From NCBI RefSeq assembly GCF_019649055.1, contig NW_026570348.1, forward strand, positions 304,511-368,510: a stretch of DNA of 64,000 bases, written 5' to 3'. Positions 5,366 to 42,200 of the stretch are shown here, piece after piece; position 1 is the first letter of the stretch; every line of letters starts with the position of its first letter. Made by a program: the position numbers and the translations under genes. This stretch comes from Paramacrobiotus metropolitanus. Lineage: Eukaryota; Tardigrada; Eutardigrada; Parachela; Macrobiotidae. Below the pieces are notes generated by a model, which did not search any database, had not been told where the DNA came from, and saw only the letters and a list, made by a program, of their open reading frames with translations.

Positions 5366-8238
5366 GAATCCTGCATTTCGTTGCGGGTGTCCCTTCGTCG
5401 GCCCTGTTCAGGATGTGGGCCGCTACTGAAGCGCACTCTGGTTGCTATGTGTGGTGCTGCTTCTGGCAATGGTTCCGGTATGGTCCTGACGTTGGTCAGG
5501 CCCAAGTCGTACATTAGCCATATGCTGACGGTTACGCCAGGTTGTTGGGCCAATTATTTTTAAGTTTGATAATGTCATTGAAGAGGTTCGAGTACATCCG
5601 TTGGAGTGCTTTCGGAGTTTCCATGTGGTATTCTCTATAGTCCCACAATAGGGCTAGACGTTCGTCTTCCCATAGTGCTCACTCTTCTTGGAGATTGTTT
5701 AGTTCTTGGGCAAATGATCCATATTGTTCGGCTATCTGCGCCCACGTTAGTGGTGCACCTGTTTCTTCCAGCCAGCCCTTTACTAGGGCAAGGAGTTGGT
5801 CGGCGCGGTATTCGAAGAAATTCTCACCCCCGTGAATCATGTTTTGTATCGCTGGACCAGTTTCCCGTGAGTACTCTGTCAGGCACCGGCAGTTTACCCG
5901 GTGCCACCGCCACCGTTGCCCTGGCTATAGCCAGAATTGCCCTGGTTCCGGGCCTGACCATAACCACCACCACCACCGTGGGAACCTAAGTTCATAGCCG
6001 CGATAGCGGCATATGTTGCTTCAACTTGGATTTAGGTTCGTGTTAGCATCTGTGGAGGATAGTAAGCCGGTGATGTTGGCTGTTGCGCTACGACGGGCAG
6101 GTGGCGTTGGTCCGGCCGTCCGGATGGCCCGGTATCCTTGGCCCGCCTTCCCGTCGTATTCGAGTTTACCTGCCATAAACTGCCGAATATAGTCCCGAAA
6201 TTCTGTCAGAGACTTCGGCAGCCGGATGTCCAGGACACGGCGCATTTCTGGCTCAGTCATATTGGTCTCCAGAAAATCAAGAGTCATGGTGTCGTCTAAG
6301 TTGGCGCGCGCCTGGAAAGTTAGGATTGCGTCATAGTATTGCTCTGGCGTCTCGAAACCGTGCCAAGGAGGTACGGTACGAGATGTCTCCAAGAGCATTG
6401 GCCTGTTGGCTCACGTTGTCGTATCGAGCTGCAAACTTTTGAAGCCACTCGTCGACTGTCCAGCCGTCGCCTTCTTCACGCTTGACCTGGCCAGTGTACC
6501 ATTCCTTGACCGGTTTGGAAAAGGATGCGAAGATGCTGCTCATGAAGTCTGGTCCGGCTTGATGAAGTCGGACGACTGCTTACAGATCCTTCTGATCTGG
6601 GCAATCCATTCTTTCACGGCTGTCCTGTCACCGTCGAAGGTCGGCTGGGTGGTCCGGGCGTTGACCTTTGCATTAGCCTTCGCATACGAGTCGGCCAGCA
6701 TCTGCATGTGTACCAGGTCATGCACTGGCGAACTGGCCCTTGGCGACGGTGCAGGCGTTATCTGCTGCCCCACTAATTGTGCCGGTGGTTGCAGTTCCTG
6801 TGGCGCTGGGCCCGGCTGGTGCCCCTATTGAGGGTTCAACAACAATTTTAGTTGGTATTGGATGGCTCAGTTGGACGCCATCCACCCGTATGTTCTATTG
6901 GGCAGCTGAACTAGCATGGGCGCATTCTGGCCCTGGTTTGGCTGAGCTGCCGGTCCGGTGGCTCGCCGCCGTTGGCGGTGCGCCGGGTGAGTTGGGCACA
7001 TTCTGGCCCGGAGGTACATTCTGGCCCGGCTGTTGTTGGCTTGCCCGTTGGTGCTGCCGCTAGGATAGGAGGACCAATTAGGCTGTGTTGGCTTATGGAG
7101 TGTCCGTTGCACCGTTGGTGTGCCACTTTGGCCTCCTATTTGTCACTGTGTGGCTGTCACTGGCTGATAGCCCAAACATTGGCGGGTTGGTCCGGTTTGG
7201 GTCCGAGCCGCTTGTTGGAGCCTGACCTGAGACCAGATGTGGGCTCAGGTGAAAGTTTATATTCGGGAACAGAGTTGGGTACAGTGGACGTGGCCTTAAA
7301 TATCCTCGGCTCGGCGTCTGGTTCTGAGACGTCGGCTGGCTCGGGCTAAAGAATGGTCCGGTTGGCACGGACGGTTGAGTCTGTGTGGCGGGCGTCAGTG
7401 TGGTCGATTGACCCATAGTTGCCGATATGGTGACCGGGATTGGTTTTGGCGGCAGCGTTACTGTCGCCGTTGATGATCTCTGGTCCACTGGACTCAAGGG
7501 CGTCGGTATGGTCGGCGGTTGTCCCGTTGATGGCTGCGTTTGGAGCACATTGACGTGGTAACGTTGATGATGATGCACTGGCTGCTGGTAGAACCGTTGG
7601 TCCTGCCGCAGGGCCTCGTCGACTTTTTCTTGTCGACGTTGTGTATCCGAGTCCGGAAAGATGTGATAGGTCGGTGGTTCTGCGGACATCTCGAAATGTG
7701 AATTCTCGAGATGTGATTTTCCCGCATCTAAGCAGGCGTTCTCCGTGTTTAGCCTTTCCAGATACTCGTTGAGTTCATTAATACGTGGGTGGCCACTTGG
7801 TAGTCTTTGACCAGACCAGCATTGCTGGCCTCTAATTTGATGATCCGGTCGTGGTTGCCCTGAATCGCCTGTTTGACTTGGCTGAAGGCCTGCTCCAATT
7901 GGACAAAATTCTGTTGCCTAATGGCGCTGTTTTGTACAAGTTGGGCTCGAATCGTTGATTCGGTCCTGAGCTGGCTCTGGAGGGCAGCGACCTGCTACTG
8001 GAGTTGCACGATCTGTGCTGCATTCTGTTGAACCGTTTGGTCCAATAGTCGTCTTTGTTGGGTCACCTGGACGAAAGTTTGATGATTTCATACAGCAGGT
8101 GATATCCGCTGCGCAGGCGGTTGATCTTGTCCTGCAACTTGGACATGTCGTCGATAAGACGATCGTTTTCTGTTTGAAGGCGGTCCGCTTCAGAGTCAGT
8201 TTCGTCGATGATGATTCGACTTCCGGCCAGCCGAGCAA
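5350..8238 (-). mobile_element. Fossil Gag-like region of a Ty3/Gypsy-type element
   Basis: Read on the minus strand the parts come in the order expected of a retrotransposon Gag. First is a coiled-coil segment (about 7,750-8,238), then a Pro/Gln/Thr-rich stretch (about 6,870-7,690), then a capsid-like part (about 6,020-6,780), then a glycine-rich tail near 5,900. The capsid-like part shows FDGDRTAVKEWIAQIR, KPVKEWYTGQVKREEG, GWTVDEWLQKFAARYD and EMRRVLDIRLPKSLTEFRDY, all typical of the retrotransposon Gag family. No protease, reverse transcriptase or integrase and no LTR pair is visible. The region is broken, with several interruptions (about five or more), and looks old. Gag normally assembles the particle that packages element RNA. 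Confidence 0.65.
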
Positions 8239-10837: not shown

Positions 10838-10982
10838 AGAAGAAACAGTATATTGTATAAACATAAAATGGCGTCGGTTACGTCATAAACTGGAGTTGGG
10901 AGCTGCACTTTCCAACTGCAATTCCCGGTTGGACTTTATGACTACAGCTCCCAACTCCAGAATATGAGTCATCACAATTGTA
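10838..10982 (+). repeat. Polinton left terminal inverted repeat
   Basis: It pairs with 25,041-25,187 in inverted orientation. The first 70 bp are nearly identical and the inner part (ATTCCCGGTTG...CAGCTCCCAACT) is about 80% alike by eye. It contains its own 16-bp perfect inverted repeat: CTGGAGTTGGGAGCTG at 10,890-10,905 and the complement at 10,945-10,960. Confidence 0.95.
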
Positions 10983-11378: not shown

Positions 11379-14300
11379 GTAAGTAAGTTTAAATCGTTTG
11401 TTAATTTCCGCCGACGAAACTTCCAGCTTGCGCTTATTGCGTGTTATGTTGAACGGATAATTCACGGTAATTCCGCTTGGCTGGTCCGGTGGTGCCAGGC
11501 TTTCCAGTAGCATCTCTTTCAGGCTTTCCAGGTTTAGCTGTTTTTCGCTTGCCGTGTCAACGTAAATCCCTTGACTTTTATCGTTTCACATCCAGTATTT
11601 GTCCGGTAAGCATAGCTTTTTGGTCCTGGGACAACAAAGAATTAACATTTTAAGTTGCTCGCATATTATTATCTAGATAATTATTCTTTTACCAAGCGCT
11701 ACAAATTCGTCAATGTACTCGTCAGGCTGTAAAGACGAGGACAAATCACCCAAGCACGTTCCCGTTGGTGGATCGGGCAAATCGTCTCTATGGATGTAGA
11801 AAATGCTGTCTGCAAAATAAAGAAGTGGATGAGCAATTTGCCGATAATACTGTTTCGCGCGTTCACCTGTATCGTGGTATAACAAACGGTCTCCAACCAT
11901 TTCCATGAATTTTAATAAGTGTAGCCGTGCGTACGCAGTCGTAAAAGCTGCGATAACAACATTGGTCTTTTTGCTCGTCGCAATGTAGTCCTTCTTGGAG
12001 CGGTATTGAACTGCCATAACTTCATCGGTGACCAAATCGAACCCGGCGACTTCGTACTTGTTAGAAAACAAGTAATCATGGAATACCTCTTTCTTTTCCA
12101 CCATATCCGTGTTGGATCGGTCTTCCTGTTGACCAAATTTTCCCTGCAATGAGCGTAAAAATAATGAACATGCACAAATTAAATAAGTTCACATGTGTAC
12201 CAAAACTATTTAGCATAAGCTTGCAAAGAGCTCTCAATGCGTCGTTTTTCGCAATATTCTTTTTATCCAGTAGAATATTTTCTTTAGCAAGGAATTCTTG
12301 AATATATCTGTCTTTTTCATCTTCCGTTTGACACTGTGGTGGATATCCAGAAGCTTCCGTTTTCAGCTTCAAAAACAGGTCAATGTATTCTCTGAATAAA
12401 TACTGCATTTGTTCTGGATAGTGCCAAGCCGAGTATATTTTATCGATACGATAGCCAACTTCTAATGCTCGATGAATTTCTGGAGTGCACCAAGTTCCTT
12501 CCAGAGCCCTGTCCTCATCATCGTGAGAACATGGTTCGTTTACGCGTTCCGTCACGCAATTTAGCGCATAAAGGAAAAGTCAGTTTATCAGTTTTGTAAG
12601 GTAGCACCGGTAAAAACAACGACGGTGGAGGAATGACGCGACATTTAATTATTCCAAAATACTCTCCACAGGCGGAAAATCTTTAGTAATGATAACAGGC
12701 GGATAAGGTAGATTTTTGTTAATATAAGGGTATTCGCTGATAACGTCGAGCGAATAGATTTTTTCTCCAGGATCGCACTTGTGGTACAACTTGATAGCGT
12801 TTGTCCTGCCACCAGTAAATGCGTCTCGGGGTGCATAGGTTCTTCAATACCGGTCAACTGAATTATTTTCTGAAATTCCAGGTCAGTAGTGAGCCGGCTA
12901 TCATAGTCGTGTTCCCAGATCGAAACTACGGAATAGCCCATAGTTTTGATAGCTTCAAGGCGTAAGGCAGTTGCTTTGTTAACTTCCTCCATTGGCCGTT
13001 TCAGAAAGGGATGCAGCGTGCTTTTGTTGTGCATTCGCTGCAGCCGTGCCACATACATCCTGCACAAAAACATTGAAGGTGAATTGCGTTTTGAATGTGA
13101 TCGATAACATTTATATCGAGCTGACTAACCTAAAAACTCGTAAGCGGTTTTTGTATCCCGATCAAAACCATCCACAGTCCAGTGACCGATTCGATGCTCT
13201 TTTTGCAATTTTACATCATTTTCCATTTCAATCCAGCGTAGCCAACGCTCTCCTTTGACAGATGACTTTTTGCCCTGACCAGGAGGGCCGATCAACGCAA
13301 TTTGGTTTTCCTTCAGCATTCGCGCTCTCCAAAAGTAATTGCACATGCCGGGTGTGGTTAGTCCAGACGCAAATGGGCATAATCCATCGGTTACCTGTTG
13401 GAAAAGCGCTCGAAATTTTTCGCACGCTTGTTGCAAAATGAGGACATCTTGTGAGCAATACCTAAAACGAATCGGATAAGTTCGATTCTGTAAATAGCAT
13501 AAGGGTTTAGCTTACTTGATAAAGTGTGCATTAAAGTCGAATTTGTTCCTGTGACGGCGTCGCTCTTTGCGGTACCATTTCATGAAGCGCTTTCGTTCTT
13601 TCTTTTCATAGACTGATAGCCATAGTCATGACGATCGGGCCAAGCAGTTATTTTATTCCAGTTTTCAGGCTTATTAAGTTTGTGTGGAAATCTCCTTTGG
13701 TTTCTTGCAAACCAAATGCTTTCGCAAAATTTTTAACGATGATGGTACATAGTTCATAGAGTCACGAAATTTTATTTTGAGTTTGGGCACGTCCATCTGC
13801 ATAACCTTGCTCCCGTTGAAAATAAGCGGACGTGGAATAACGCCGTTTTTCACGAGATAATTCAAAATGAAGTATCCATCAAATCCCTGAAAAATAAATT
13901 ATCAATTTATTTAATAAAGAAGTTACTTAACGTGTTGACTTTCGCTACCTTCAAATTGTGCGCCATAAATGTGTAGCCACGGAAACGCTCACTGAAAATG
14001 AAATCGCCAAGTTCTTGTGAAATGTCGCCGTTAATATTACCGTTTTCTGGAAGAATAAATTTTTCATTTTTTGTCGCGATCACCGCTAGGTTGACTTTAA
14101 ATTCTCCACTCTCGTCTTGATATGTTTCCAGGTCAAAGTATGCCAGCTTGTCGTTATGGTGCTTGGCCTTTTCTTTATCCGTAAATTCCACGGGTTTCAT
14201 ATAACACACATGGTTTTCCTCCGGCATATAGAATAACGAGCAAGTCGCACAAAACTCACCACATCGATGTTGCTGATCGTCAACATCTAGTTCGATTTCC

Positions 14301-15600
14301 TTAGCAATATCGTGGTCCTGGTCATTGTCCTCACCATGAATTGTATCGTAATTGGTCTTCATACGGCGATTTACCATGGAGACAAAGGTTTTACACTCAC
14401 GGCAAATGAAAAATTTGCGCAGATGGTGCTGCTCCCAGCTTGGTGTCTGTCAAAACAATCTTGCCCATAGAAATCGCGGTTACAGTCCAGACAGTGTATG
14501 GTTTCTTGCTTATTCATTTTGCAAGTTGCAGACAAACACTGGTGGCACTTGAACTCGCAGCGGTGATACTGTCTTTGATCGTAGCCTTTCATGCAACGGT
14601 AACAGTAATAGTGGTGCTCAAAATAGGCCGGTAAAGATGTTAAAACATCAAAATGTTGATCGTGATGCAGCAGCATAATTCGCTTTTCGCAGTAGGCGCC
14701 GCAGTAGACGATAGAATTTCCATGATCCACAGATACCACAATAAACTGATAATTCGGTAAAACTTCTTCAAAGCGGGGAATATCTTGCACGTTGAATTCT
14801 CTGTTTGGCAGGTTGGCAGTCAACAATAATTCTTTTGTCTTCTGGTCTTGCAACTTTATGGTTCGGTAAAGCTTTGTGTACAGCTCTTTGTCGCCATCTG
14901 CATGCGCTTGTGCCACAACTATAGCCCTGGCCATACACAAACAGTCCGTATTTCGAATCTGGGTAATACATCTTTTGTTGTCTAAAATCCGCTGCAACAA
15001 TTTTGATACATTTTTTCTGCATGATCCGGATGGCAAATCAGTGTGCTGGACTGACAGTTCAAATGATTCGTCTAGCAGAAAAGCCTGATTAGAGTTTAGA
15101 ATCCGCCTTATTGTCGTCATCCACCGTTCAATTGTTATTTGGTCCCGCCGAATAGGTGGCATCCAAATTGGATACTGCAGAGCATTTTGATACATGCGGA
15201 TTCGCACCAGGTTATGCGCTGGAATCGCAGCAATCACACTCTCCAGAATATCTTTCAAAACGAGTGTTATCGTTTTAACAGCATACTTGAACGATAGATT
15301 ATCCAGCCCCGTCACTGTACATTTGTAAGTTTCGAACGAAACTGAAAATTTCTGGGAATATTTTGCTCCGATATTTTCGAGCACATAATAATCTTTAATG
15401 TCATTCAAGTCTGGATCGACTTCGTCAGCTATATTCAAAGCTGGCAGATCAGCTCGTGGTACAGTATAATTATGATCAAGAAGAGCATAATCATGATTGA
15501 AAAGTGCGGTATCAGCAAACTGTGGGTTACTAGTACAGGCGTTAGAGTTGCCCTGTACACGATCAGGTACTTGCGTCATCGTAAAGACGAGCTCTGGCAA
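11313..15600 (-). mobile_element. Polinton part: protein-primed DNA polymerase B region (fossil)
   Basis: Minus strand. Near the 5' side (14.4-15.6 kb) is a long N-terminal part with cysteine/histidine clusters (CYRCMKGYDQRQYHRC, CHQC). The exonuclease part follows at about 13.7-14.2 kb (YFDLETY, FMAHN). The polymerase palm lies at about 11.7-12.5 kb, with KLMLNSFG and ADSIFYI, the family B motifs for template/dNTP binding and catalysis. The C-terminal end near 11.3-11.5 kb (KRRIVDSDFNTRPWG) resembles the usual end of Polinton polymerases. The enzyme copies the element using a protein primer. The region is broken in several places and some gaps may be introns. Order and motifs leave the identity in little doubt. 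Confidence 0.9.
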
Positions 15601-16789: not shown

Positions 16790-17212
16790 CTATTGGTGAA
16801 CAAATGAATAAGAGAGGTAAATGACTCGCCGGAGCATCGTTTTAGAATAAAAAAAGCAGCAGTACTGTCCGCACACGGTACTCCATTCCATTTGTAAACG
16901 ATGCGCTTGCGAAATAACTAACTCGGCGTTCTTGCAAAAACTTTCAATATGGATGCCGTAAAATCTCGGTTCGTGACCATAAGAGTCAAAATATTCCAAT
17001 TTTCCCGGGACGTCCTGGTAGAACGCCAACCAATGCGAGCCTGGCTTTGCAGCTTCGTCAGTATTGACAACGCATGCCCATGGCAGCTTCATTGGCAGGG
17101 ACGGTGGTAACATGTCCGCAGCAAATACACCAATAAAAGCGTCTTTCGTCACGGTACTTGAACGTAGCACGTGGTCGATTTCAGCAGTGTCCATTTTAGT
17201 GCCGATCTGCAT
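16790..17212 (-). mobile_element. PRO: Polinton part: adenovirus-type cysteine protease (PRO)
   Basis: A single open frame of about 140 codons, the usual size for Polinton proteases. The expected order of active-site elements is visible: GSHWLAFYQD (His), YFDSYG (acidic partner) and STVCGQYCCFFY (Gln/Cys region). This family (adenain, C5-like) matures capsid proteins during particle assembly. It starts just upstream of the hairpin that separates it from the capsid gene. The frame looks open throughout. Confidence 0.9.
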
Positions 17213-17430: not shown

Positions 17431-18783
17431 TTACGCTGTAAAATCCGCAATTAGCTGGCGATGTGAATTGACTTCAATAATATTATCCCACACCATCATC
17501 GTAATGGCCATAATTGGTTCAGTTAATTGGGCGGCGAACTGCAGGCGGATTGATAGATTTCCTTGGCGCACGGTGCTCATCGGTCCCCGGCCTGTCCGTG
17601 AAGGTGTCAGATCGAATCCCCAAATAGCAAATCCTTCCGCAAATGCTTTACGGTCGAAAGGCAGCGCCCCGTCCGGTGCGTGCAAGCGGCCGAGCGTCTC
17701 CAACAGACCGTCATATGATTGCAAATAATCACCCGTGGCGAAATTTGGTCGGTAGGCTTGTGCGGGATACGACTGTCCGTCGACTTCGACACTTATATAG
17801 TTGAGATTGAAATGTTCAAAGTTAAACGGATTACCTCGGCGCAGCCCGTGAAAACTCGAGCTTTTTACAAATCCCACAAAAACACATTTGGGTACTGCTC
17901 CAATATGTAAATTAGCCAGCACTGTGCTCTGAATCATACCAATATCATTAACACGCATACACACTCGCTCAATAGGGTATTTCACAGTCTTTGTCGATAA
18001 TTGGGCAGTAAGCGCAGACAAATATGCCGGATTAGGCACAAAGCGTTTGACGTACAACCGCGGATTGCGAATGTATGCTTTAAAGGTATCCACTGGAAGA
18101 TTGGCATATGAACGCAGGTAGAATTCCGGCTTATTCAAAATGAGGCGCACATGTAGCGGTACACCGGTGATCAAATTTTTTCCCTGCTGAAAAATGTCCG
18201 TACATAATTTGGCGCTGAACGGGACGTACTCGTTGGTCACAAACATAGCTTTTCGCGTTACTTCTCCAGCGTTATTGGCATGATCTTCTAGGTACCCGGG
18301 AGTGTCTATATAAAATCCAGCACTTGTTGCCTGGCTTTTTAGGGCAGCCGGTGTGTACCCCAACAAATTTTCCAAGTACGCTCGGTAGGCATATAATGGG
18401 GTGGAATTAGTTATCAGGCGGTTGGCCATTGTTACCTCTACCGAGCTGAATATAGAATGTGCAATCAAGTTCACTGGTGCTACCAGATCCGTGTTTTCAA
18501 TATGCGTAGCCGCACCAAGTCCTGCAATTTGCTTTTTGATTGCAATATCCATTTCTAGCGTAATTTCCGGTAGCACTAGCAGCGCCGACGTTGAAGGGGG
18601 AATGTAAAAGGAAATTTCTCCAGAACTAATTTCTTCTGTTTGCCCTGATGTTGGTAGAATGCGTTCTTCTTCTGTCCGCACAAAATCCGCTAGAGTGGCC
18701 GGAACGGAGAATAAATCCGACTCGACCTGCATAGCTGGCACGCTTCCTTCCAAAATAAAAGCCATTTTAAAATGCGTCCTCAA
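17431..18783 (-). mobile_element. MCP: Polinton part: major capsid protein (MCP)
   Basis: One open frame of up to 450 codons (a likelier start is the internal Met of MAFILEGSVP). Recognisable stretches include SFYIPPSTSALLVLPEITL, FSSVEVTMANRLI, YAYRAYLENLLGY, GVPLHVRLILNKPEFYL and YVKRFVPNPAYL. These follow the pattern of Polinton double-jelly-roll capsid proteins, related to hexon-type capsids. Many such units would form an icosahedral shell. Length is slightly short for the family but the flow of conserved segments is normal. It is followed at once by the membrane-active minor protein region, as in other Polintons. Confidence 0.9.
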
Positions 18784-18812: not shown

Positions 18813-19232
18813 TTAAGTCGGAAGGAAGGTTTCTTTATCTTTTGTCCTCTTGTGCTGCTGCTTGAGCCGTTTGATGCCTCCTTGCTGTTGAGGTTGCGCA
18901 GTTAACGCTTCCGAAATTTTCTCTCCTACCTTCTTGGATGTTTCACTTAAAACTGTTGTCGCTGCGTCGCGTAAGTGGGGCTTTGCTGCTTCCATTGCTG
19001 CTCTGGCATGTGGTGCCGCTGCTTTAATAACCGGGGCAGCAAAATGCGCTAATTTACTAAACATTGCGCGCAGGAAATTAGGTAGCATAAATCCGCTGCC
19101 ATTTTGCATTAAACTCCCGCGATAGCGTGTCGCGACGGCTCCATAGCCGTGCTGGCTACTAGCGCCCGTGGCGGCCCCCGCAAATAAATCCAGATAGAAC
19201 GATGGTGACGGCTCAAAGAGGATTACGGGCAT
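18813..19232 (-). mobile_element. Polinton part: small basic/amphipathic capsid-associated protein (PVI/PX-like)
   Basis: An open frame of 139 codons. An N-terminal hydrophobic/aromatic start precedes GYGAVATRYRGSLMQNGSGF, a motif common beside Polinton capsid genes. Then come LPNFLRAMFSKLAHFAAPVI and a long alanine-rich amphipathic helix, ending in a lysine-rich tail (IKRLKQQHKRTKDKE). This layout recalls adenovirus protein VI/X, which bind the capsid interior and disrupt membranes; that function is inferred. Confidence 0.7.
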
Positions 19233-19235
19233 TTT

Positions 19236-20165
19236 TTAGCGATAGTAATACTGAATGGGGCGGAAATGCAGCTTTACCATTGACTTTCCAGTCTGAAAAA
19301 TTGCCGCTTCTCCGAGATCAGTTGCAATGTTGATATCAATAGTGTCCAGTCGATCGTATAAAACAGGTAAATAATGTGGATCCTCAAACCTTTCGGAAAC
19401 AATTTCGAAGCGAGGAACACTTGCTTTAATGGGGAAAGCGCGCAAAAGCTGCATAGTTTCATCGCCCACAATATTGTAGTCGCACTTGTTGCAGTAGACA
19501 AAATTGACTGGTTCCCAATGTGCATATTTACGGGCTTATCTGCTGTCATTGTTATAGACGTCTCCAACAGTTGCAACTCTGCCAGGGCTTTCAGCTGGTC
19601 GGACAGTGTTGTAGCTGCGGAAGCAAAATTCGTTTTTCCATTAAAAATTTTCATATTGTTCAGACTGTGCAGCAGAAAATCGTCGTTCTTTAAATCCAAG
19701 CATACGGGATAGATGCAAAGATGAGGGAGGAAAATCCAGAAAAACACGTACGCTGGGAAATTTCACTTTGAGCTTGGGCTCGGTTGCAAATAATTCTAGT
19801 TGGAAAGCCGCCTGTTCTTTCGCTGAAGAATCGCGAAATGGCTTTAACCGTGGTACTTTACTGTTGATAAAATTAATGATGTCACTTTTCTCATAGATCC
19901 CTGCAGGTACCGTAATTGTGTCCCTCTCCATAGCGAAAACACCGTTGCTATCCATAGAAGTAATTTGGTCAACGTGCAACGTTTGGGGACTGGGTAAATT
20001 GTACATTGAATTAGGATACTGTATTTCCACCAATGCCATTTCCCATTGTCCCGGTAGCGATATCACGCTCTTTAACTTTGTGGTCCATTCAGCTGCATTA
20101 TTCTTTGGGAACTGTTGCATACAGGCATCAGATGGAAGCGTGACATAAAAGCTATTATGAGCCAT
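19236..20165 (-). mobile_element. Polinton part: minor capsid (penton-like) protein region (fossil)
   Basis: The N-terminal part (about 19.7-20.16 kb) reads MAHNSFYVTLPSDACMQQFP, then WTTKLKSVISLPGQWEMALV and EIQYPNSMYNL, a standard opening of the Polinton minor capsid/penton protein (PY). That protein is thought to be a single jelly roll at capsid vertices. The rest of the region, down to the protein VI-like gene, fits its C-terminal half. Broken, about one or two interruptions. Confidence 0.8.
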
Positions 20166-21198: not shown

Positions 21199-21940
21199 TC
21201 ATTTGTTATTAATAGTCATCCAGTTGAACTGGGATTTGGTTCTTGAACCGATGGGACCTTCGATTTGTAAAGTGTTTTCATCAAATACTTCTCGCTTTGC
21301 ACGCTTGCGTTTTGCCGGGGGTGCAGGTGGAATAGGAGGGAAAGCATCTAACATACGATCAGGCATATTAGGGGGTACCCACGGCTTCTTTAATAGTTGT
21401 ACTGGAATGGGGGGCACAGATGCTGGAGGCGGAATAACCATTTGGTCAGGGCCGAACGCCGACTCTTTCAGCGCCAAAAAGCGAGCCAAGTTTCTTGATA
21501 ACAGTTCCGCTTTCTCCCATTCGCTTAGCGTATTCCGTGAAATTATATCTCTCATCAAATCGTCCAGTTTTACAATATCCACAACTTCAGTAGGCTGCTG
21601 TTGTAATTGGACATCCGTTACAATACGACCAACCGTGTCACTTGCAAGTCTTTTCATTTCGCTCGCGGGAACAATATAATGCACTTCCGGTTTCATTTCA
21701 GTAAGGCAGTTCCCAAAACAGCTGCCAATACAGGTAGAACCGCAGGTAAGAATCCTCCGCGCTGTAATAAAATTTCCTCTTGCTTCGTAAAGGATATTTT
21801 TTGAGGGCAATCAGCTTTAATGGTCGACGCCAACGCTGACACACCTTTAGCTGATCGGTGGTAAGAGGCACTGAATTCTTTACCAAATTCAAACAAATTT
21901 CTTCAAAACAGCGAAGTTGTCGTTTCGAAATATTTTCCAA
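21199..21940 (-). mobile_element. Polinton part: hypothetical protein region (fossil)
   Basis: Two segments in this stretch resemble products often found between the integrase and ATPase of Polintons. One is a short basic protein with a hydrophobic glycine/proline tail (LLQRGGFLPAVLPVLAAV). The other is a mixed protein with a proline-rich segment (PPPASVPPIPVQLLKKPWVP) and a basic patch (PPAKRKRAKRE). Functions unknown; the first type has been suspected to be membrane-active. Confidence 0.5.
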
Positions 21941-22012: not shown

Positions 22013-22714
22013 TCACACATTCTTGGGCAAGGTTGTCGTATGTGGATTAATGTAAATTTTAGTCAACTCTCCCGGTAATATTGCTGAACGAATCCTTAAA
22101 TAGGCAGGTGTGTCCGGTTTCATATCCAAAATGAGAGGTTGAAATGGTTCCTGGCCGACTTCCTCGTAAGCTCCGCTGAGATGTTTTAAACCAGTCTGCC
22201 TTTCTAGAATCTTGATTTGGTTCACATCACGATTATTTTTGAACAGTATAAGATATTGTGCATTAAGATGCACGTCTCGCATAGCAGACCCTTGTTTATA
22301 TAGGTTATTGAATAATAGAAATACACAAAGCCGTTTATGGTGTACTTTTTTGAGTGAAGAGTTTAGCCAAATGCTCATTTTTCACCAAACCACTTGCCAC
22401 GTCATCCAGTATCAACAAAATATTTTGTTTACCATCAAAATAATTTTCATCCTCCACAATTTGTTGAATATTTTTGTCAGTTCAATCCAAGGGACTTTGC
22501 GCTGAAGCACTTCGTAGGCTGGCTGCATTTCTCCGTACACCAAAATAATTCGTCCAAATGGTTGGTCAAATAATTTATCGCGCTCCATAATTAATTTTGA
22601 CACATATGTCGTTTTCCCCGAAGTCGTTGGCCCCACAACAAGGACTGAAGCGGGTAGTCGGAATCTCAAATCAGCTGTCGTGCGCGGATACCTATTTAAG
22701 GAATCCATTTCCAA
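22013..22714 (-). mobile_element. ATP: Polinton part: FtsK/HerA-type packaging ATPase region (fossil)
   Basis: The N-terminus has a Walker A site in PASVLVVGPTTSGKTTYVSK, followed by FGRIILVYGEMQPAYEVL, as in Polinton ATPases (A32-like). Downstream segments (FKNNRDVNQIKILERQTGLK, YLRIRSAILPGELTKIYINP) match the C-terminal part. The motor pumps DNA into preformed capsids. It is the last minus-strand gene, and the next two frames diverge from it about 35 bp away, so the gap likely holds a two-way promoter. Broken, one or two interruptions. Confidence 0.85.
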
Positions 22715-22748: not shown

Positions 22749-23189
22749 ATGGAGACTTCAAAGCGGAGGGTTGTCTTAGATATTGATTGGTTTATCGCTG
22801 GCTCCCAACGGCTTATAAAACAGCTGGCATTTTGTGATTGCCCAACTAGTGTTAGCAGGTGCTACACATTCACCATTCCATCCCACTTTAATCGTTACCG
22901 CGTTGAATTTAGGAGCCAATCGCGTCACTCACACGGACTTGTCTGGCATAATCGTGGAGATTATTTATACTTGGACATCGCCAGGGCGATTCAGGATATG
23001 CTGGAGCTTATTGGTGAACGACCTGCGCGTTTGACGTTTTTGCCAAAGGATTGGAAAAGCAAAAGATTTTGGAAAATTATTTGCCTGAAGTGTTTAATCT
23101 TGAAGACATTGGGTGCCCGAAGTTTAAGGAGCTTACTTCATTACCACAAACAACGCTTTCAAAAGCGGAGACATTTGCAAATTGGCTGA
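22749..23189 (+). mobile_element. Polinton part: unrecognised plus-strand frame
   Basis: Opens METSKRRVVLDIDWFIAGSQ then RLIKQLAFCDCPTSVSRCYT. The D-I-D...K-Q-L-A pattern resembles the first strands of an RNase H-fold (DEDD exonuclease-like) domain and is echoed by ITELAISSVDF in the region at 15.7-16.65 kb. FLPKDWKSKRF lies further on. It shares the short divergent spacer with the ATPase gene and runs directly up to the TBP-like frame, so the two probably share a transcript. The fold suggestion is weak; looks at least partly decayed. Confidence 0.45.
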
Positions 23190-23717
23190 ATGGCGAAAAT
23201 AACTAACGTTGTTGCAACTGCTGACCTTGGCTGCGCAATTGACTTACCCAGCTTATCCGAACGCGCTCCGCTTGCTCATTATGCACCACATAAATTTTCC
23301 GGGCTTCTTCTCCGTTCCATTCGTCCTTACAAATCGCACTGCCAAGTGTACCGCAACGGCAAGATCACAGTTAATGGTGCAAAGTCCATCAGTGATGCTC
23401 TCGCGTTATTGGATCACTATTACCGGAAACTGCAAAAATACGGCTATCAAAAAGCATCGTTAAAGAATCCAAGAATTGTTAACATTGTCGCCACTTTCAA
23501 TTTTGGGAAATTTCTTAGTTTAGAGAAATTATACAACTCAATAAGAGCAAAAGCTGATGCCATGTTTGAACCTGAAATATTTCCGGCCATGCGAGTCCGG
23601 CTTCAAGGTTGTACGGCGATGATTTTCCATTCTGGAAAAATTAATTTATTAGGTGCAAAAGATGCTGATACTCTTCATACTGCTGAAAACGAATTGCGCC
23701 TGTTATTAGGAACCTAA
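23190..23717 (+). mobile_element. Polinton part: TATA-binding protein (TBP)-like gene
   Basis: One open frame of 175 codons forms both halves of the TBP saddle. Repeat 1 has ITNVVATADLGCAIDLPSL, HYAPHKFSGLLLR and GKITVNGAKS. Repeat 2 has IVNIVATFNFGKFLSLEKL, MFEPEIFPAMRVRL and AMIFHSGKINLLGAK. The match to eukaryotic TBP covers the minor-groove Asn in each repeat (TNVV, VNIV). Of the four DNA-kinking phenylalanines three are visible (HKF, EIF, MIF) and the fourth position is Tyr (CQVY). There is no N-terminal extension. TBP nucleates transcription complexes at promoters for all nuclear polymerases. Here it could drive the element's own genes or compete with host TBP; either is inference. Polintons are not generally known to me to carry TBP. 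It could be a host capture or a shared viral trait. Confidence 0.85.
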
Positions 23718-25040: not shown

Positions 25041-25187
25041 GCTGCAGTTGTGCTGAATCATATGCTGCAGTTGGGAGCTGCAAGTACAAAGTACAACCGG
25101 GAATTGTAACTAGAAAGTCCAGCTCCCAACTCCAGTTTATGACGTAACCGACGCCATCTTATGTTTATACAGTATACTGTTTCTTCT
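25041..25187 (-). repeat. Polinton right terminal inverted repeat
   Basis: Inverted copy of 10,838-10,982. The outer 70 bp carry GTTTATGACGTAACCGACGC and end TTTATACAGTATACTGTTTC TTCT (outermost base 25,187). The internal CAGCTCCCAACT / GTTGGGAGCTG pair seen on the left is also present. Confidence 0.95.
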
Positions 25188-39256: not shown

Positions 39257-42200
39257 CTAGCTGGACTGTGAGACAACCCTCCAACATCTGGTGGTCAGCA
39301 GTCGGTGCACTTGCTGTCGGTACTCCTTGCTGACAGCCAGATATACGAAGAAGTTCAGTGTATAATTCGCCCTCAATGAGACATCACACATGAGCGATAA
39401 ATTTTCCATGATGGTCTTCGTAGGCGTAATAGGCGCCCCAAATAGGCGGGCCAGCCCTACACCGCTGAATAGCACGTTGGGAGCTTGCGCGACAATGTAG
39501 ACGGCGACGGTGCCCAGCAGCAGAATATGATGGTTCATGGTGTGTTTATTGCGAGAGTCGCGGGTTGGATCGGAGTGCAGAAGAGCTAGTGTGGCCCGGT
39601 ATTCTCTGCGGATGACGCAAATAAGGATGCTGCTTAGCAGTAGCAAAAGAAGGAATTTCCCAAAGACGATAAAAACCTGTAAAAGACGACTCGTTAACCT
39701 TACAGTTAACAGAGGCGTTCTGGATGTTTGCAATTGCATGCAGGATGCAAATCCATCAAGAAATTCCAATAACTTACAAAAATTATCTAGCACAGGAAAA
39801 TGTTTATGAACCTGTTAAGACCACAAGAGGCTAGAGGTGGCTTACGGCAAATACCAGGTAGGTCGTTGGGTTGATAAGCAGAAGTATTTGGAATGGTATG
39901 TAGTTGATTGTAGCCGGCAGGAAGGTTGACGGGTTGATGGTTGACGCTCAATGAAGGTCATCAACCTTTCTCTAAAGGTCGTCAACCTTTCTGATCAACC
40001 TTTTTTAAAGGTCATCAACCTTTCCGATCAACCTTTTTTTAAGGTCATCAACCTTTCTCATAAGGTTTCCAACCATTTTGCCGAAGGTTGTCCTCATAAC
40101 CGTCCATCATATTTATCTTTCGGCTTGCTGTTAACTTGCTTACCATTAACATTTTCTTTTTTAACATTTCTTTCTCGGTATCCATGCATTAAAAAATGGC
40201 GCCGTGCTGTGCATTTGGAGACACTGCGGCTACATGAAATCACCTTGCGTTATAATGATAATATGCGCTCAGAGTAGCCAAAATCATACTGCTGAGATTG
40301 TCTTTTGCTAACTCTAAACGTACTGGAAGATGCACCGAATTAACTGGTGCCGAAACGGGCAGATGTCTTTTTTTTGATAGCCCTGTTCGGGCTTTAACAG
40401 CAACAATTTTCCCAACATGTGTGCTTGAGAACTACCTAGTATTATAAGCACTACCGCATTTTACAAAGAAGGTAGTCTCAGATGTGCACGTCTTTGCACT
40501 GGTAGTCTTAGTGAATGTTGTTATGGTAGTCCACCTTTCTGTCGAGAGTCTTAAACCTTTCTATAAAGATAGTCAAACTTTCTGGAAAGATCATCAACCA
40601 ATCTGTAAAGGTCATTAACCTTTCTCGAAAGGTCATCAACCTTTCTGTAAAGGTCATCAACCTTTCTGTGAAAGTCATCAAACTTTCTGTAAAGGTCGTC
40701 AACATTATTTTGTAAAGGCCGTTCCTTAACTTTGCAAGAACCCACTTTATAAAGCCTCACAAATAAATGTTTTGCGGTCGGAGGAGTCAGTCGACAACGA
40801 TAAAAATAAATAGAGCTTTAGAAGAAAGGTCGATTGTAATTTCATCCTGAAAAACCATTTAGATATTACTAGCACTTATTATGGCTTATCTTGATTACAG
40901 TACCATTTAATAATATTTGCACGCGTGACCGATAGAAAGGTGGATGTTCAATGAAATCACTTCCAATAATCTACCGAACCAACCCGTCGGTGTCGATTGA
41001 TCTAACAACGACACCATTGAGTGCATTCAGGCCCATTGTGAGAGTCAATGTCACTGATTCGGAAAAAAAGTGGATGCAGCTATGGATATGTTATTTTTAT
41101 CACTCTGTCTGCCTGACATCCAAATTTCTTCAGTCTCCCATTGAATTTTTCATTTGAGAAAATTTAATTTAACCTTATACATTGACGAGATTCGTGCCGG
41201 CAACCAGCTATGCAGGTGGCTGCCCGCTGTCGCCACAGACTCGTGCGTGGAACTCCAGTTTCTTCTCTCGTTCACATCTCGGTCAAACCTCCCGATTATA
41301 GTTCTAAAAGGTAGAAATGCAGTACTCAGAAGTTTTCTGGTACCCAACAAGCTGCTGTTAGAGCGTATAATGTTGGAGCAAATTAAAACACAAGAATGCA
41401 CGAAAGCTTCTGTAAGTGCTGCGCAGAGAATCTATATGAAGTCTGTCAAAACAAAATTACTCTCGTAGTCTCATCGGGCGTTTTTTGCCTCCAACAGCAA
41501 TTTATGTATTCAGTACCAAAAAACTGCTAAGTGTTTTCTCTGCTTTTTTCAATGTTGATCGTGAGGTTTTACCAAGATGTACGCAAGAGAAAAAGACTAG
41601 AGGTAAACGCACGAGCCACGAGTATATGGAGGGAGTCAGCTGATGGGCAATGTCACCTGATGAAAGAGATAATTTTTATTATTTCAAACCAACACAATAA
41701 ACCGTGTTAAAAAGCTATTAGAAAAACAAAAGCTTATTAAGCATTTCAGCCTTCTCCACGGTACCCATGACAGAAACCGCGTTGCCGCGTTGTATCTCTA
41801 AAAACACAGCGTTAATTATTTTTTATCGCTATCGACTGGTACCTCCGACCGCAAATCACTTTTTTGTGGGGCTTTGTATAATGCGTTCTTGCAGAACTAA
41901 GGAACAACCTTTACAAAAAAGGTTTACGGCCTTTACGGAAAGGTTGATGACCTTTACAAAAGGTTAATGACCTTTACAGAAAGGTTGATGACCTTTACAA
42001 AAGGTTGATGACCTTTACAGAAAGGTTGATGACCTTTTTGAGAAAGGTTGATGATTTTCATAGGAAAGTTTATAACTTTCGACAGGAAGCTGGACTACCA
42101 TAACAACCCTCACTAAGAATACCAGTGCAATGACGTCCACATCTGACCATGGTGAGTCCACCTTCTTTGCAAAACGCGGTAGTGCGTATAATGCTGTAAT

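Follow-up and report, generated by a model that had tools for sequence, protein, structure and literature searches.

A TATA-binding protein gene in very many Polinton copies of one tardigrade suggests a possible private promoter code steering host transcription

The Polinton of the window and its TBP-like gene

The window, i.e., the whole stretch of 64,000 nucleotides of Paramacrobiotus metropolitanus DNA analysed here, contains a Polinton, a virus-like mobile element, that carries a gene for a protein like the TATA-binding protein (TBP), which marks the places where transcription of genes begins. Between positions 8000 and 26000 there is only one inverted-repeat pair of at least 40 nt. Its arms are 143 nt long and 87% complementary, and their outer ends enclose one unit of 14.35 kb. 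No target-site duplication is visible in the window copy, since the bases flanking the matched repeat ends differ (by eye, the exact ends being uncertain). The element contains the following features.

10838-10980, + strand: left terminal inverted repeat (repeat search)
11673-15579, − strand: family-B DNA polymerase, several broken frames (PF03175 on one frame)
16790-17212, − strand: adenovirus-type cysteine protease (PF00770, 6.2e-06, 26.5 bits, cut-off 21.3)
17431-18765, − strand: putative major capsid protein, 444 aa (homologues at no fewer than 93 distinct genome places)
18813-19232, − strand: putative small basic protein, conserved in L061-L066
19641-20165, − strand: putative minor capsid (penton-like) protein, conserved in L061-L066
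20350-21124, − strand: rve integrase, two frames in the window copy (rve, 4e-07)
21199-21696, − strand: conserved Polinton ORF (tblastn to L062, L063, L065 and L066)
22013-22708, − strand: putative packaging-type ATPase, broken frame (22412-22708 plus 22013-22378; motif GPTTSGKT)
22693-22699, + strand: TATTTAA, TATA-like, 56 nt before the ORFx start and within the opposite-strand ATPase frame
22749-23206, + strand: ORFx, directly 5' of TBP, two frames (22749-23189 and 23018-23206)
23190-23717, + strand: TBP-like gene, 175 aa, ATG to TAA, both TBP repeats
25045-25187, − strand: right terminal inverted repeat (repeat search)

The polymerase and ATPase frames are broken in the window copy. PF03175 matches one broken polymerase frame at 7e-06 and 25.6 bits, below its cut-off of 25.8, and the gene is homologous to sequences at loci L061 and L065. 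The rve match of the window integrase reaches 30.7 bits, slightly below the cut-off of 32.6; the L063 homologue is over the cut-off (3.1e-11, 43.9 bits). For the ATPase, Pfam gives weak P-loop matches only. Homologues of this gene occur at no fewer than 149 places, and the unbroken one in L067 has 209 aa. The frames at 17431-18765 and 19641-20165 are what we take to be the major and the minor (penton-like) capsid proteins, named from gene order and recall. The putative major capsid has no Pfam or PDB sequence match, and its single-sequence fold model reaches a pLDDT of only 30. ORFx has no Pfam match over cut-off and no PDB match below E 0.1, and its second frame overlaps the TBP start by 17 nt. 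Close copies show TATTTAA or TATTAAA at the place of the TATA-like motif before ORFx, which is weak evidence alone. Among the element frames scanned with Pfam there is no match to RNA polymerase or TFIIB. Outside the element, a host GPCR-like frame lies at 39257-39739 on the − strand (Srw, 1.3e-05).

The preliminary description of this DNA had read the frame at 23190-23717 as both TBP repeats with no extra domain, and this reading holds. The profile search that it proposed as a check gave a decisive match rather than none (PF00352, E 2.8e-37, 126.9 bits, cut-off 22.9, in two stretches), and no Pfam family besides TBP appears up to E 1. Its other observations on the frame are borne out as well: one minor-groove Asn in each repeat (N6 and N98), three kinking Phe with a Tyr at the fourth position (F36, Y54, F131 and F146), a single open frame from ATG to TAA, and Polinton ends on both sides. 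The ATPase (22412-22708) is the near neighbour, and a conserved ORF (22749-23189) lies in between.

By sequence, the closest solved structure is an archaeal TBP (1mp9, 5.8e-21). PDB sequences matched by the window protein are named TBP, TFIID or TFIID fusion in 34 of 35 cases, and identity to solved TBPs is 27–34%. The structure prediction, also proposed earlier as a check, yields the TBP saddle: the AlphaFold model has a pLDDT of 96.9, and Foldseek and VIA-align place it on TBP structures.

Copies, neighbours and descent of the element TBPs

The genome searched (G000, Paramacrobiotus metropolitanus, 169.8 Mb in 533 contigs) has a canonical host TBP at C4:406165-406662 (L031, 115 bits). Its core is 85–89% identical to 120 animal and environmental TBPs (among the matches listed), and no element gene is listed within 12 kb. 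The host coding sequence is interrupted, which we read as an intron, and shows a one-base slip in a run of A. The slip suggests that the assembly probably has indel errors. Hence, assembly errors may account for part of the broken element frames.

Merging the results of four TBP searches gives at least 225 distinct places, i.e., the host gene and at least 224 other TBP-like loci. As markers of the element we used the putative capsid (103 matches at at least 93 distinct places), the integrase (150 matches at at least 132 places, 18 being further fragments) and the ATPase (150 matches at at least 149 places). Among the matches listed, a TBP lies within 12 kb of 84 of the 93 putative capsid places, 119 of the 132 integrase places and 135 of the 149 ATPase places. 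For a random point in the genome, the chance of a TBP this close is about 3.2%. Nine of the 93 putative capsid loci are without a listed TBP. In the reverse direction, 183 of the 224 TBP loci have a listed element marker within 12 kb, where chance would give at most about 5.3%, and 41 have none. Two of these 41, on contigs C168 (L062) and C189 (L016), adjoin Polinton genes; hence, the marker lists are incomplete. The rest of the 41 may include remnants or host paralogues. A truncated copy (L019) has no neighbouring gene within its 1.5-kb flanks. Longer contexts, eight in number and picked by hand from seven TBP families, contain Polinton genes in every case.

The earlier worry that the gene might be a host insertion confined to one copy is refuted by the at least 224 loci besides the host gene, 183 of them near an element gene. 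The TBP frame of the window is a Polinton gene, and most Polinton copies found in this genome carry a TBP.

TBP adjoins the ATPase in the window and in L062, and lies between polymerase and protease in L065. Inverted pairs of very similar TBPs, about 9 to 11 kb apart, are found at C1:124809 (+)/136216 (−), C36:632221/643580 and C13:232600/242033, as if TBP lay inside long terminal repeats. ORFx and TBP share a strand, with ORFx lying 5', in the window family as well as the L033 and L037 types. A weaker relative of ORFx precedes TBP in L064, and a different ORF occupies this place in L061 and L067. The ORF before TBP runs past the TBP start by 13 nt in L063, 62 nt in L062 and 68 nt in L065; in L063 and L065 this ORF is ORFx. 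The L067 protein (L067:2677-3744, + strand) has a long charged C-terminal tail and 355 aa in total, and matches to this tail recur in further copies, often in another frame.

Of the ten places genome-wide where a PC4-type domain exceeds the cut-off, nine have a TBP no more than 1.6 kb away. The PC4-type protein could be a coactivator or a single-strand DNA binder. None of the three TFIIB loci is near a listed element gene. The PC4-type and inhibitor-of-apoptosis-like (BIR) neighbours are these.

L063:4148-4861, + strand: PC4-type (transcription coactivator p15), over Pfam cut-off
L064:4706-5083, − strand: PC4-type domain, just under cut-off
L065:4251-4721, + strand: PC4-type domain, just under cut-off
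L061:5422-6252, − strand: BIR, IAP-like, with RING finger (E 1e-28)
L063:2300-2902, − strand: BIR, IAP-like (E 2.1e-21)
L067:1203-1736, + strand: BIR, IAP-like (E 3.8e-07)
L068:1048-1584, + strand: BIR, IAP-like (by similarity)

The element TBPs are under purifying selection in the pairs compared. NG86 gives dN/dS values of 0.08–0.29 in 15 of 16 frame pairs (the 16th is undefined), and YN00 gives 0.13–0.42 in the 12 pairs where the method ran; several pairs are saturated, with dS > 1. We also considered whether TBP frames survive better than capsid frames, but the difference was not significant: 17 of 21 TBP frames are whole against 63% expected by length (P 0.07), in a rough test that used 19 capsid matches and left out three further fragmentary capsid places.

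We built a tree of 61 sequences, without TRF or TLF: 17 TBPs of the Paramacrobiotus metropolitanus genome, 33 environmental, 8 cellular and 3 archaeal. The 50 element and environmental TBPs are split from the 11 cellular and archaeal ones with a UFBoot of 100 on a branch of 1.24, and the window TBP thus does not group with cellular TBPs as a canonical eukaryotic TBP does. The deeper order within the 50-member clade has poor support. In a list of 120 proteins that includes P0191, a publicly annotated protein of this tardigrade, the repeat-1 motif is of the element type in 60 and of the cellular type in 38; in a list of 120 animal and environmental TBPs the counts are 0 and 120. The environmental relatives are probably linked to Polintons as well, to judge by their sequences. 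Scans of IMG/VR returned no relatives of the TBP, the ATPase or the putative capsid. A phage collection yielded a single match to the TBP, in a haloarchaeal virus at 30% identity, and none to the ATPase stretch. Among the copies found in this genome, the element TBP is general, old and constrained.

The DNA-reading groove and the promoters

Few proteins of eukaryotes and archaea are as conserved as TBP, and few natural TBPs whose DNA-reading floor is rebuilt are known. We compared the 50 element and environmental TBPs (hereafter element-type TBPs) with the 11 cellular and archaeal ones at groove positions in yeast numbering. Presumably, L114, T124, V203, L205 and T215 contact DNA. All 11 cellular and archaeal rows have these residues, and the window TBP has Q, N, T, M and L instead, i.e., it lacks the conserved DNA-reading residues of a canonical eukaryotic TBP. 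The change is nearly uniform across the element-type TBPs: L114Q is found in 49 of 50, and T124N and T215L are found in all 50. V203 is lost in 50 of 50 (T in 41, R in 5, S in 4), as is L205 (V in 40). In addition, 44 of the 50 have T for V122, 44 have Y for F116 and 43 have N for V213; at these positions, too, the 11 cellular and archaeal sequences are all like yeast.

Other parts of the protein are retained. N69 is kept in 48 of 50, N159 in 49, and F190 and F207 in all 50; F99 is kept in 48, with Y in the other 2. E188, which we take to be a TFIIB-facing residue of the stirrup, is kept in 49 of 50, and E186, which we assume to be a second TFIIB contact, in 21 of 50. The lysines that we believe contact TFIIA are not consistently retained, position 138 being basic (K/R) in 22 of 50 and position 145 in 16 of 50. 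Element TBPs resemble cellular TBP (PF00352) in their two repeats, saddle, groove Asn, kinking aromatics and E188. They differ from it in the rebuilt floor of the groove, the separate clade and the lack of an N-terminal domain.

The altered-specificity mutant m3 of yeast TBP (I194F, V203T, L205V) reads TGTAAA. Element-type TBPs are similar to m3 in having T at 203 (41 of 50) and V at 205 (40 of 50), the window TBP having T and M. Unlike m3, they are natural and carry further changes at 114, 122, 124, 213 and 215. A second difference concerns the m3 site TGTAAA: upstream of element genes it is not enriched (5 of 61 against 4.3 in shuffled sequence). TATA-like motifs are likewise not enriched upstream of element genes overall (4 of 62 against a shuffled mean of 3.0, and 5 of 61 against 4.1). 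Hence, neither search identifies a site for the element TBP. As for the TBP units themselves, 6 of 15 have a TATAWA upstream, compared with 3 of 49 other genes (Fisher 0.0036, in a split made post hoc and with related families that are not independent).

The only hexamer above the shuffled maxima (4.0 at 95%) is CTGTTT, which occurs upstream in 12 of 50 cases against 2.2 in shuffled sequence (z 5.1); coding controls have it in 2 of 50 cases. Its distances are scattered from −10 to −134, none being fixed. We regard CTGTTT, with TGTTTT inside, as no more than a weak lead. Examples lie upstream of the window ATPase, of the ORF at 21199, of the integrase of L062, L063 and L065, and of the L067 ATPase. 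A looser pattern, TAT followed by three A/T, was rejected: it occurs upstream in 20 of 50 against 15.1 in shuffled sequence, but also in 20 of 50 coding controls.

What the element TBP may do

The preliminary description did not know TBP as a standard Polinton gene, and the available text of a study of vertebrate Polintons agrees, since its list of eight core genes is without TBP (PMC8097293). The tardigrade elements resemble vertebrate Polintons in their inverted repeats, polymerase B, rve integrase, adenovirus-type protease, ATPase-like gene and putative capsids. They differ from the elements described in that text in carrying TBP, and ORFx before it in several families. A full-text literature search, mostly at the level of titles and abstract beginnings, found no report of TBP in Polintons. 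In the available portions of the sources, TBP appears only in a reference in PMC7786948, is absent from PMC11071308, PMC11071296, PMC12220804 and PMC13419823, and is not part of a survey that lists Mavericks in tardigrades (PMC11071193); that of PMC4028283 mentions neither TATA nor TBP. Larger DNA viruses do bring their own TBP, and the TBP-bearing Polintons are like them in this respect. According to the available text, 59% of mirusvirus genomes have a TBP (PMC10132985), TBPs are sporadic in mirus-like elements of an alga (PMC10675990), and giant viruses have them too (PMC11464507; PMC12085832). Giant viruses and mirusviruses have large genomes, however, and Polintons are small. Viral TBP matches in BFVD are 7–22% identical to the window TBP (among the 50 matches listed).

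That such an element TBP could change promoter use, as had been suggested earlier, is plausible on the sequence, and the rebuilt DNA-reading surface speaks in its favour. We think it probable, with some reserve, that it is an element-encoded basal factor with altered DNA specificity, which recruits host TFIIB and RNA polymerase II (Pol II) to element promoters. The TBP unit, together with ORFx where present, would be transcribed early by host Pol II; the TATAWA upstream of 6 of 15 TBP units supports this proposal. The protein would then bind promoter DNA as a saddle; given its rebuilt groove floor, the site would differ from the canonical TATA box. Finally, the bound protein would bring in host TFIIB and Pol II at element promoters, partly outside the controls that act on host TBP. 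We infer this last step from the retention of E188 and the inconsistency of the presumed TFIIA lysines. The nine of ten PC4-type places near TBP count for the mechanism, and so does a giant virus, CpV-BQ1, which in the available text has TBP and TFIIB and is proposed to redirect host RNA polymerase (PMC12085832). Against it count the retention of E186 in only 21 of 50 and the TFIIB loci, which lie away from element genes (none of three near). The lack of TATA-like or TGTAAA enrichment upstream of element genes overall, the scattered distances of CTGTTT, the 41 TBP loci with no listed marker and the nine putative capsid loci with no listed TBP speak against it as well.

We are more tentative about a wider version, which falls somewhat short of an even chance. 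In a small virus-like element with no known RNA polymerase of its own, an early gene with a TATA box of the host type would make a new TBP of changed DNA specificity, and this TBP would bring host TFIIB and Pol II to those capsid and replication genes on which host TBP does not act. Such a private promoter code would be ancient and general in one branch of Polintons.

One could also argue that the element TBP is a decoy for shutting off the host, which ties up TFIIB or blocks TATA boxes and so lowers host transcription. We consider this unlikely. E188 is kept in 49 of 50 while most tested DNA-reading residues are replaced and the assumed TFIIA-facing lysines vary, as a decoy for TFIIB might have it, and a promoter site common to all element genes was not found. 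If the decoy acted on host TATA boxes, one would expect its reading residues to be retained, but these are uniformly replaced (T124N and T215L in 50 of 50).

It is also improbable that the TBP fold has been reused outside transcription, for binding the replication origin or terminal repeats, for packaging, or for directing the integrase to promoters. For the last of these roles there is a parallel in some retrotransposons, which are guided by Pol III factors. The DNA-reading surface has moved from that of cellular TBP, one family has inverted TBP pairs with a spacing of about 9 to 11 kb, as though one gene sat at each end of an element, and in other families TBP adjoins the ATPase, all of which would suit such a role. 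However, the position of TBP is inconstant (beside the ATPase, between polymerase and protease, or near the ends), and no tRNA gene was found in the window, although one element is a weak test. An altered-specificity TBP acting on element promoters is thus the best-supported reading when set against a decoy and roles outside transcription.

Element TBPs are a natural set of variants for learning how TBP reads DNA. They also offer a test of how small nuclear DNA viruses that use the host polymerase control the timing of their genes, and they are a possible source of new promoter factors for hosts.

One copy has been annotated publicly as a tardigrade gene (P0191, TATA-box-binding protein-like, Paramacrobiotus metropolitanus). 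We regard it as very improbable that the TBPs are host genes, i.e., TBP paralogues that multiplied in tardigrades only, or a gene that the host captured recently and that has no role: this annotation and the 41 loci without a listed marker, which could include host paralogues, would fit, but the host TBP is separate, canonical and without a listed element gene within 12 kb, the clades are split with a UFBoot of 100, many environmental contigs contain relatives, a TBP lies within 12 kb of 84 of 93 putative capsid loci (among the matches listed) against about 3% by chance, and dN/dS is low. Residues 1-113 of P0191 are identical to the frame in L047 and L048 (the latter on C112), and its gene model omits part of the element frame. 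The public gene model is an element gene. Hence, where models in genomes of this kind are annotated as TATA-box-binding protein-like, they may belong to elements.
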